Source of the DNA: Parcubacteria bacterium C7867-006
GTDB lineage: Bacteria; Patescibacteriota; Minisyncoccia; Phycocordibacterales; DATDWN01
Reading direction: 5' to 3'
Length of the DNA: 43,363 bases
NCBI GenBank assembly: GCA_001189155.1
Contig: LFCP01000001.1
Coordinates: 211,779 to 255,141 of the forward strand
Below the pieces are notes generated by a model that saw only the letters and a list, made by a program, of their open reading frames with translations, was not told where the DNA came from and searched no databases. Both the position numbers and the translations under genes were made by a program. Below are positions 18,587 through 21,530 of the stretch, in pieces (the first letter of the stretch is position 1; each line of letters begins with the position of its first letter).

Positions 18587-18808
18587 TCAGGCCTTGGGTT
18601 TCTGGAAGTCCATGTGGGGGACACCCTGCTTCTCCGAGACTCTACGGATGACAGCGATCTTTTCCTGTGAGGTTGAGTCGTTCCTCACTCGGATGACGTT
18701 GCCAGGCACGAGACCGTTCCAGTCACGTGGCCGTGGCCAACTGACAATATTGCCGGAATCGAACAGTTGCCAGTGTTCGTTGCGCAGCACCAGATTTCTG
18801 GTATTCAT
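18587..18808 (-). CDS. Cassette E: hypothetical 73-aa protein
   Basis: Minus-strand GAGGAGGAGATGCTCT-ATG SD; GC-rich codons; convergent terminator. Confidence 0.65.
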   Translation of the reverse strand: MNTRNLVLRNEHWQLFDSGNIVSWPRPRDWNGLVPGNVIRVRNDSTSQEKIAVIRRVSEKQGVPHMDFQKPKA

Positions 18809-18905: not shown

Positions 18906-18935
18906 TTGACTGGTGAACCACCGTTCACCTATAAT
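18906..18935 (+). promoter_or_regulatory. lexA operon promoter with embedded LexA/SOS box GGTGAAC-N4-GTTCACC
   Basis: TTGACT 18906-18911; dyad 18912-18929; TATAAT 18930-18935; core GAAC-N4-GTTC resembles the Gram-positive SOS box. Confidence 0.85.
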
Positions 18936-18988
18936 AAAAACATAACAAATTACCAGGGTTTAAATTATAAATTTATTTTATTAAAAAT

Positions 18989-19180
18989 ATGAGTAAACAA
19001 AATTTTGAAAAGTCATTAAAAAAAGAGCTTCGAGTTTTGAATGAAATCATAGATATGAAAATTGTTAGAGGTTTGTCTTATGCGCAGGAGGCTAGAAGAC
19101 ACAAGTTTATTTTAAACAGTCTCACAAACATAAAACGAACAAAGTCAGGATGGATGCTAAGATCATTTAATTTTGCATAG
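18989..19180 (+). CDS. 63-aa basic hypothetical protein, first gene of the lexA operon
   Basis: Downstream of the SOS box, directly before lexA. Confidence 0.65.
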   Translation: MSKQNFEKSLKKELRVLNEIIDMKIVRGLSYAQEARRHKFILNSLTNIKRTKSGWMLRSFNFA

Positions 19181-19183
19181 AAT

Positions 19184-19762
19184 ATGAGTAACGAAAAATA
19201 TTCTACATATAGAGATAAAATACTTTCTTTCTACAGAAAGAACCGACGTATGCCTGGTTACAAAGAGATAATGACTCTTGTTGGTTTTAAATCAAAAAAT
19301 GCGGTTTACAAACTCATCAATAAACTGGTTGATGATGGAATTGTAGATAAAGATTCCAACGGTAAACTCACTCCTATGAAAATTTTTGGCGAAGTCCCAC
19401 TACTCGGACTTGTTGAAGCCGGAATACCAACAACTGTTGATCAGGGCACTGATACCCTGAGTTTAGAAGAGTACCTAATAGGAGGAAACAAAAACTCAGT
19501 TTATCTACTAGAAGTAAAAGGTGACTCTATGATAGATGAGGGTATACACGAGGGAGATCTAGTTCTGGTTGAAAGAAGAGGTGACCCGAGAGATGGAGAT
19601 ATTGTTATAGCAGAGGTTGATGGTGGTTGGACTATGAAGTATTTTAAAAAGAAGGGAAGTACTGTTTATCTAAAAGCAGCAAACAAAAACTATTCACCAA
19701 TATATCCAACATATGATTTGAAAGTGGCCGCTATAGTGCGTGGCGTTATACGAAAATATTAA
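19184..19762 (+). CDS. lexA: LexA repressor
   Basis: Winged HTH-like N-term; EAG cleavage site (LVEAGIP), GDSM catalytic Ser, TMKYFKK catalytic Lys. Confidence 0.95.
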   Translation: MSNEKYSTYRDKILSFYRKNRRMPGYKEIMTLVGFKSKNAVYKLINKLVDDGIVDKDSNGKLTPMKIFGEVPLLGLVEAGIPTTVDQGTDTLSLEEYLIGGNKNSVYLLEVKGDSMIDEGIHEGDLVLVERRGDPRDGDIVIAEVDGGWTMKYFKKKGSTVYLKAANKNYSPIYPTYDLKVAAIVRGVIRKY

Positions 19763-19787: not shown

Positions 19788-20405
19788 ATGAATAAATACC
19801 CCTTATTTGCAGTTGGAGGTCTTGTTTTGGTTTGTGTTTTATTTTTAATATTTACAAACAAGCAAGATATAAAAAATTACCCATCAAAAGGCGTAGATAT
19901 AATCGCATTCGGTGATAGTTTGATAGAGGGAGTTGGAGCGTCTAGTCCAGATAAAAATTTAATTTCTTTGCTATCAAAAAGTATAGGTAAACCCATTGTT
20001 AATCTTGGAGTTTCTGGAAATACAACGATAGATGGTTTAAAAAGATTAAGTGATTTAGATAACTATAAACCAAAAGTTATAATTCTTCTTTTGGGTGGAA
20101 ATGATTATTTAAGAAAAATACCAATAGATGAGACTTTTGATAATCTTGGGAAAATAATATCTAATTTACAAGACAGAGGTGCTGTGGTTTTGGTTTTGGG
20201 GGTGAGAGGTGGTTTGTTTAGTGATAAGTTCGAATCCAAATTTCAAGATCTGAGTGAAAAATATAATACAGCTTATGTTTCCGATGTTTTAGATGGTTTG
20301 TTTGCTAATACAAAATATATGTCAGATGCGATACATCCAAATGATTTGGGTTATAAAAAAATAGAAGAAAGAGTATACCCTGTACTTTTAAAGCTAATAA
20401 AATAA
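19788..20405 (+). CDS. SGNH/GDSL hydrolase (TesA-like), N-terminal signal/anchor
   Basis: IIAFGDSLIEGVGAS, LLLGGNDYLR, DAIHPNDLGY. Confidence 0.9.
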   Translation: MNKYPLFAVGGLVLVCVLFLIFTNKQDIKNYPSKGVDIIAFGDSLIEGVGASSPDKNLISLLSKSIGKPIVNLGVSGNTTIDGLKRLSDLDNYKPKVIILLLGGNDYLRKIPIDETFDNLGKIISNLQDRGAVVLVLGVRGGLFSDKFESKFQDLSEKYNTAYVSDVLDGLFANTKYMSDAIHPNDLGYKKIEERVYPVLLKLIK

Positions 20406-20698
20406 TGTCAAAGATTTTTAAAATTTACTCGCAGGTTTGGAGATGGCCAGGAGATATGGGGTGGCATTTTGTTACTTTACCTAAAAATTTATCTGCAGAT
20501 ATTAAAAAAGTTGGAAAAAGATATGGTGCTGGATTTGTGAAAGTTAAAGTTACAGTAGGGAAAAGTACTTGGGTTACAGCTTTGTTCCCACACAAAGAGT
20601 CGGAGTCATATCTGCTCTCAATAAAACAGAATATTCGCAAAAAGGAGGGAATATGGGAGAATGACAAAATAAAAGCATCATTCGTTTTAGAAAAATAA
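20405..20698 (+). CDS. DUF1905-like small protein
   Basis: WRWPGDMGWHFVTLPK..GFVKVKVTVGKSTWVTALFP. Confidence 0.75.
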   Translation: MSKIFKIYSQVWRWPGDMGWHFVTLPKNLSADIKKVGKRYGAGFVKVKVTVGKSTWVTALFPHKESESYLLSIKQNIRKKEGIWENDKIKASFVLEK

Positions 20699-20949
20699 TG
20701 AGAATATTTGTAAAAGTTAAGGCTAATAGCAGGGAAAATAAAGTTGAGGAGCCTCCTCAGAGACTTTTGCAAACCGATGAAAGACTAAACGACTACTATA
20801 CAGTATCTGTAAAAGAACCTCCTGTTGAGGGGAAAGCAAATGATGCGGTAGTTAGAACACTAGCTGAATATTTTAGTGTTTCTCGTTCACAGGTAACTCT
20901 TTTATCTGGTTCTACATCAAAAATAAAGACATTTGAAATAAAGAAATAA
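20698..20949 (+). CDS. DUF167/YggU (UPF0235) protein
   Basis: VKVKANSRENKVE..VSVKEPPVEGKANDAVVRTLAEYFSVSRSQVTLLSGSTSKIKTFEI. Confidence 0.9.
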   Translation: MRIFVKVKANSRENKVEEPPQRLLQTDERLNDYYTVSVKEPPVEGKANDAVVRTLAEYFSVSRSQVTLLSGSTSKIKTFEIKK

Positions 20950-21254: not shown

Positions 21255-21420
21255 TGGAAGTACTCGCCAAACGATTTTCGACAATTCGTTTTTGCCATCC
21301 GGCTGATTCAATTTCCATTCAGCCTAGTCTCGTTGCCCCAAACCAGGACTATTGACGAGACTCCCACGTATGTCCTACCCACCATTATCCCCGGTCGCCA
21401 AAAGCGATCGGGGGTGCCTT
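21255..21420 (+). ncRNA. Candidate structured small RNA upstream of rpoB (unassigned family)
   Basis: TATAAT at 21243-21248; hairpins 21269-21291, 21301-21324, 21326-21362; terminator 21389-21413 plus T-run. Confidence 0.55.
21389..21420 (+). terminator. Terminator of the candidate small RNA
   Basis: CCCCGGTCGC-caaaa-GCGATCGGGG, then gtgccttttt. Confidence 0.88.
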
Positions 21421-21530
21421 TTTATTGTCTAAATGTAATAAATTAGCCGTTTTATTGTATAAGAGGGTGTAAGTAACTGTTTACTTGGGAGTGTGTCAAA
21501 TACGGTGTTAATAGTATGTGTATAACTTTG

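Follow-up and report, generated by a model that had tools for sequence, protein, structure and literature searches.

The lexA gene of Parcubacteria bacterium C7867-006 is preceded by an ORF for a 63-aa protein, and a perfect inverted repeat lies in the promoter in front of these two genes. This locus raises two questions. Is the inverted repeat the operator of LexA, and is the small protein an output of the SOS response? An initial annotation, made from the sequence alone, had proposed both. We analyzed the whole stretch of 43,363 nucleotides around the locus (the window) and compared it with the genomes of relatives. The genome that contains the window has 673,860 bp and is 98% complete. The nearest named relatives, as judged by LexA, are Candidatus Zambryskibacteria. 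The features discussed below are collected in Table 1.

Table 1 Features of the lexA locus and SOS boxes at polymerase loci of relatives
Feature	Position or locus	Strand	Basis
-35 hexamer TTGACT	18906-18911	+	Direct reading; -35-like hexamer in lexA promoters of relatives
Putative LexA operator (SOS box) GGTGAAC-CACC-GTTCACC, GGTGAACCACCGTTCACC	18912-18929	.	Direct reading and conservation
-10 hexamer TATAAT, abutting the operator	18930-18935	+	Direct reading
63-aa basic protein, uncharacterized lexA-linked family, predicted two-helix hairpin	18989-19180	+	Homologue profile, pN/pS, AlphaFold2
lexA, 192 aa, winged HTH and S24 autoprotease	19184-19762	+	TIGR00498, Peptidase_S24, PDB 3k2z, Foldseek
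SGNH/GDSL hydrolase, probable operon member	19788-20405	+	PF13472 (1.8e-23); 25 nt after lexA
DUF1905 protein, overlaps the SGNH stop	20405-20698	+	PF08922 (3.5e-21)
DUF167/YggU protein, overlaps the DUF1905 stop	20698-20949	+	PF02594 (2.2e-20)
Ogt-type O6-alkylguanine transferase C-terminal domain, 86 aa	20951-21211	+	PF01035 (9.7e-29); PCHRV motif
Box before Y-family polymerase in relatives, at some loci with a UmuD-like S24 gene first	L115, L116, L117, L119, L121, L123, L187, L188, L189, L190, L192, L193

The dyad fills the spacer of the lexA promoter

The hexamers TTGACT and TATAAT are separated by exactly 18 nt, and these 18 nt are the whole of the perfect dyad GGTGAACCACCGTTCACC. This layout had been described in the initial annotation, and its coordinates (18906-18935) were read back exactly. 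A scan of the genome for GGTGAAC-N4-GTTCACC, which had been suggested as a check, gave a single perfect copy, the one in the promoter of the lexA operon; it is likewise the only copy in the window. Although the window contains 15 promoter-like hexamer pairs, a dyad with arms of 7 is enclosed by this pair only. In first-order resamples of the window, a promoter-like pair around a dyad with arms of at least 7 appeared in 2 of 40 cases. Thus, the layout of this single sequence is only modestly unlikely by chance and, taken alone, is only suggestive. The significance of the dyad comes from its conservation across genomes, not from the statistics of the window.

The dyad is conserved in lexA promoters of relatives

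According to the initial annotation, its reading would fall if the dyad were not conserved in front of lexA in relatives. The promoter search was seeded with TGAAC-N4-GTTCA only, and the outer G and C were not required. Distinct lexA promoters, 39 in number, from several groups of Patescibacteria were collected, and GTGAAC-N4-GTTCAC is invariant in them: the outer G and C are kept in 39 of 39 although they lie outside the seed. The TATA of the -10 hexamer stands at a fixed distance from the box (within 1-2 nt) in 37 of these promoters, and a -35-like hexamer (TTGAC-, TTGCA- or TTGTC-like) precedes the box in 34. In the relatives, the box is fixed with respect to the -10 hexamer, whereas the position of the -35 hexamer varies by about 1 nt. 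A spacer of exactly 18 nt is therefore not a general rule.

In the order, 247 genomes were compared. Among the 93 genomes with lexA, 68 carry an exact copy of the 12-base dyad, versus 6 of the 154 without lexA, in counts that ignore phylogeny. Seen from the side of the box, 68 of 74 box-bearing genomes also have lexA, and 148 genomes have neither (phylogeny again being ignored). The reversed control pattern was rare. By this cross-genome conservation, the claim of a LexA box is well supported.

The core of the box is already known. The LexA/DinR box of Bacillus subtilis is GAAC-N4-GTTC, with autorepression of lexA (PMC4234289), and its core and spacing are identical to those in this group. The group differs from B. 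subtilis in that the outer GT...AC is invariant and that the box stands between the -35 and -10 hexamers, at a fixed distance from the latter. The GAAC-N4-GTTC palindrome is found in lexA, Y-family polymerase and umuDC promoters. Accordingly, the resemblance to the Gram-positive SOS box that had been noted at first holds for the core, whereas the outer extension characterizes this group.

The repressor is LexA

The product of the second ORF scored 115.8 bits against TIGR00498, an equivalog-level model with a cut-off of 110.95. It also matched Peptidase_S24 (PF00717, 1.7e-26) and the LexA of PDB 3k2z, by sequence (1.5e-19) as well as by Foldseek (E 2.7e-13). A cleavage site and a Ser/Lys dyad had been recognized in the initial annotation; they were found as A79-G80, S115 and K152, align with A84-G85, S119 and K156 of E. 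coli LexA, and are invariant in 31 homologues. The Pfam model LexA_DNA_bind remained below its threshold (15.0 versus 23.7 bits). In the AlphaFold2 model, helices 3-20, 26-33 and 38-50 and strands 54-56 and 62-64 are predicted to form a three-helix winged HTH, and Foldseek matched this model to full-length, solved LexA structures. On the TIGR00498 score, the invariant catalytic residues and the match of the predicted structure, the protein is identified as LexA.

Four genomes that hold the main lexA (G012, G114, G165 and G179) encode a second LexA besides it. This second protein is 45-51% identical, and its gene is located directly before a Y-family polymerase, without the small ORF (G012:C14, G114:C64, G165:C9 and G179:C12).

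The dyad as the probable LexA operator

Boxes at genes other than lexA, in promoter context, precede Y-family polymerases or umuDC at 12 loci in relatives. Pfam analysis covered four polymerases and a single UmuD-like protein; the rest of the 12 loci were recognized by sequence. Genes for umuDC and Y-family polymerases are classical SOS targets. Furthermore, the flank of the box covaries with the recognition helix of LexA. In this group, the flank TGAAC is paired with the helix KSKNAVYKL; Syntrophaceae relatives combine AGAAC with RSKSVVNFW, and L031 and L033 combine CGAAC with SRSSA or SKSSA. This covariation comprises few independent changes, and there is one exception, L032, which keeps N with an AGAAC box. 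Because promoter conservation, SOS-gene targets, covariation of flank and helix, and the identity of LexA agree, the assignment of the dyad as the LexA operator is well supported at the level of sequence comparison.

If the dyad were instead the operator of another regulator, its place beside lexA would be incidental. The sub-threshold Pfam score fits this idea in so far as it marks the HTH as divergent, and binding of LexA to the dyad is a prediction from sequence. However, the box follows the presence of lexA across the 247 genomes and marks umuDC and Y-family polymerase genes, its flanks change with the recognition helix of LexA, and three helices and a wing are predicted at the N-terminus, in a model that matches full-length LexA. 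We consider another regulator very improbable.

Several other boxes were observed. In L062-L066, the LexA of Syntrophaceae and other bins is about 50% identical and is accompanied by a variant box, AATAGAAC-N4-GTTCTAT; a binning error is possible, as is a transfer between Patescibacteria and bacteria resembling Deltaproteobacteria. A box also precedes the gene for a conserved Cys-rich protein of 212-226 aa with a weak HNH match, in two family members (L120:2231-2869 and L122:2467-3147); these genes stand after genes resembling rpsB and tsf. In one relative of the genus, a gene for a RhuM-Fic protein has an SOS box upstream (L118:1480-2460, minus strand). Exact boxes outside a promoter context (L125, L186, L191 and L194-L197) were treated as chance occurrences. 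When viral contigs were searched for the full promoter pattern, no match was obtained.

Operator sites and SOS genes of this genome

We searched for further members of the regulon by pattern scans. In the genome, the scan detected no second operator, either exact or with one mismatch, and the number of sites with up to two mismatches was 15 versus 16 for the control pattern. The inspected sites whose TGAAC-N4-GTTCA core is intact or nearly so lie inside coding sequence and were rejected. The recA gene is present in this genome, and no box was found upstream of it. Many SOS systems, by contrast, have a box at recA. In relatives, the same operator is found at umuDC and Y-family polymerase operons. 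A Y-family polymerase was not detected in the present genome; the same polymerase model gives matches above its cut-off in 82 of the 247 genomes of the order. Several dispersed targets that include a translesion polymerase, as in an SOS regulon, are present in several relatives but not here. The single operator and the lack of a detected Y-family polymerase suggest that the SOS regulon of this genome may be one operon.

A small-protein family is linked to lexA

The 63-aa ORF ends 3 nt before lexA, and the two ORFs lie as the initial annotation had described them. It had also advised a search for homologues beside lexA. By profile search, the family was found in 62 of the 247 genomes of the order, and in 61 of them the member is the direct same-strand neighbor of lexA (54 before and 7 after the gene). 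In the 62nd genome (L200), the contig ends just past the small ORF. When a phylum-wide sample of 380 was searched, strong matches came from members of the order only. Within the order, the family was never found beside Y-family polymerases or other targets of LexA. Of the 93 genomes with lexA, 32 do not have it; therefore, the small protein is dispensable to LexA function. Among lexA genomes, the small ORF is present in 29 of the 35 that lack a Y-family polymerase, versus 32 of the 58 that have one (Fisher p 0.007, phylogeny ignored).

We aligned 31 homologues that are encoded between the box and lexA. They align over the first 50 residues, and seven positions are invariant: M1, N18, I21, D22, I25, Y31 and H38. 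The length of the family members is 59-83 aa, all 31 are basic, and in most of them the last two residues are hydrophobic. The gap between the small ORF and lexA reaches 100-220 nt in several genomes. The mean pN is 0.22, the mean pS is 0.80 (near saturation) and the mean pN/pS is 0.27. Thus, the small ORF is under purifying selection. AlphaFold2 predicts helices at residues 3-27 and 32-60 with a mean pLDDT of 85 and a C-terminus of low confidence, and the 63-aa protein is predicted to be a helical hairpin. A transmembrane segment was detected in none of the 31 members (maximum 19-residue hydropathy up to 1.16).

Searches for relatives of the family in Pfam, NCBIfam, PHROGs, PDB sequences and PDB folds gave no significant match, and a search of viral contigs gave no relative of the small protein. 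Seryl-tRNA synthetase arms and SSV1 D-63 came up as Foldseek matches of the hairpin and were discarded as generic coiled-coil (E above 0.8). Identity with VapC was also rejected: 2 of 31 members are weakly similar, with a best E of 0.0041, far below the curated cut-off.

Genes downstream of lexA

From lexA through the Ogt gene, the gaps are at most 25 nt or the codons overlap, and Pfam confirmed the domains of the four genes (SGNH, DUF1905, DUF167 and Ogt-like) that had been listed as tightly packed. In the Ogt domain, the active-site motif PCHRV is intact and the usual N-terminal domain is missing. The genes downstream of lexA vary even inside the genus, and SGNH, DUF1905, DUF167, Ogt and MPG form a recurrent set in varying combinations. 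For example, an SGNH gene is also found 3′ of lexA in L035, a DUF1905 gene in L038 and L040, a DUF167 gene in L037, L039, L040 and L041, and the Ogt domain, behind MPG/AAG, in L036 and L042.

We also note the following around the operon. A gene for methylpurine-DNA glycosylase is located in the lexA operon of genus relatives (L036:4117-4635, L037:3583-4116 and L042:3848-4351), at the place that corresponds to Ogt here and twice directly before an Ogt domain; alkylation repair may be the SOS output of this lineage. Between the Ogt gene and rpoB, a GC-rich hairpin is followed by a T run (21391-21425), and the lexA operon may plausibly end there. The opposite strand carries, close upstream of the SOS promoter, an ORF of 73 aa (18587-18808, minus strand) without a family match; it lies in a patch of about 55% GC, and its surroundings have about 30-38% GC.

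Possible functions of the small protein

The observations are best explained as a whole by a LexA-autoregulated SOS operon with the small protein as a damage-induced effector, and we regard this explanation as probable. A LexA dimer would bind the dyad that fills the spacer between the -35 and -10 hexamers and would block RNA polymerase. RecA filaments on damaged DNA would then cause self-cleavage of LexA at A79-G80, and the operon would be expressed. Its output would be, in order, the small protein, new LexA, the SGNH, DUF1905 and DUF167 proteins and the Ogt-type alkylation-repair domain. We infer binding by LexA, induction triggered by RecA and a single transcript; LexA would then regulate its own gene, and the 63-aa ORF would belong to the SOS operon. 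Because a repressor that controls only itself would be hard to maintain, the small ORF is read more easily as an output. The proposal that it encodes a candidate SOS effector gains support from the conserved lexA-linked family, and the effector role is predicted on this basis.

The main rival reading is that the small protein modulates the switch. It may bind LexA or the RecA filament and tune cleavage or re-repression; DinI and RecX tune RecA. The restriction of the family to the side of lexA would be explained, since strict linkage to a partner is typical of interacting pairs, and a small, basic protein with a predicted helical hairpin is compatible with such a role. However, LexA works without it in the 32 genomes mentioned above, and the ORF is enriched where a Y-family polymerase is absent, as expected of an output and not of an accessory. 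Moreover, no match of sequence or fold to DinI, RecX or known modulators was found. We therefore think a modulator rather unlikely.

A leader peptide or translational coupler for lexA, with a functionless product, is highly improbable. The usual position of the ORF 5′ of lexA and the short gap in this genome fit coupling. The ORF nevertheless follows lexA in 7 genomes and elsewhere is separated from it by the long gaps described above, and its amino acids are conserved although synonymous sites are nearly saturated; seven residues do not vary among 31 diverse members. The position after lexA, together with conservation at the protein level, makes a leader-peptide role unlikely, and the small protein would be a damage-induced effector instead. 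That the lexA operon captured a toxin-antitoxin or phage-derived module is scarcely credible: apart from the weak VapC similarity, a protein of 59-83 aa is half a PIN domain, there is no partner gene but lexA, and neither a viral-contig relative nor a PHROG match below E 0.01 was found.

Apart from polymerases, SOS effectors are lineage-specific and not easily recognized. SosA (77 aa), YneA, ChiZ and DivS are lexA-adjacent SOS inhibitors of cell division; they are small, lineage-specific and LexA-controlled, and they have a transmembrane segment, mostly with LysM (PMC6851548). The 63-aa protein resembles them in its small size, its place next to lexA and the box upstream, with LexA control being predicted here. 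It differs in that it is encoded inside the lexA operon, whereas sosA is divergent from lexA (PMC6851548), and in its predicted helical hairpin. No homology to SosA, YneA, ChiZ or DivS was detectable. Because it does not have their single transmembrane segment, which in them goes with an extracellular C-terminus, we do not class the 63-aa family with these inhibitors. The small proteins next to lexA in Gram-positives are SOS division inhibitors, and a division brake is therefore the first hypothesis for the effector. Most likely, it would act as a temporary brake on a process such as cell division, like SosA, YneA, ChiZ and DivS. This suggestion is speculative and tentative, and the absent transmembrane segment weakens the analogy.

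An SOS network of Patescibacteria is also already known: a DNA damage-inducible network was reported by Sanchez-Osuna, Barbe and Erill (2017, Environ Microbiol 19:3465; cited in PMC8565304 and PMC7739468), which, going by its title, concerns the same superphylum and regulatory system. In the literature on CPR with LexA/SOS, we found nothing beyond this network. In the literature searched, no description was found of the small family, of its constant association with lexA or of the regulon that apparently consists of one operon, a statement limited mainly by the 2017 network, which is known by its title.

The small protein accompanies lexA constantly in dozens of genera and is thereby a concrete effector candidate in a group that is hard to culture. 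With reserve, we propose that the small helical-hairpin protein, always encoded with lexA, is the core SOS output of this order of ultrasmall Patescibacteria. If this is true, the SOS response of species such as the present one would have shrunk to a single operon without a translesion polymerase, in which DNA damage would lead to a brake and alkylation repair instead of mutagenesis.
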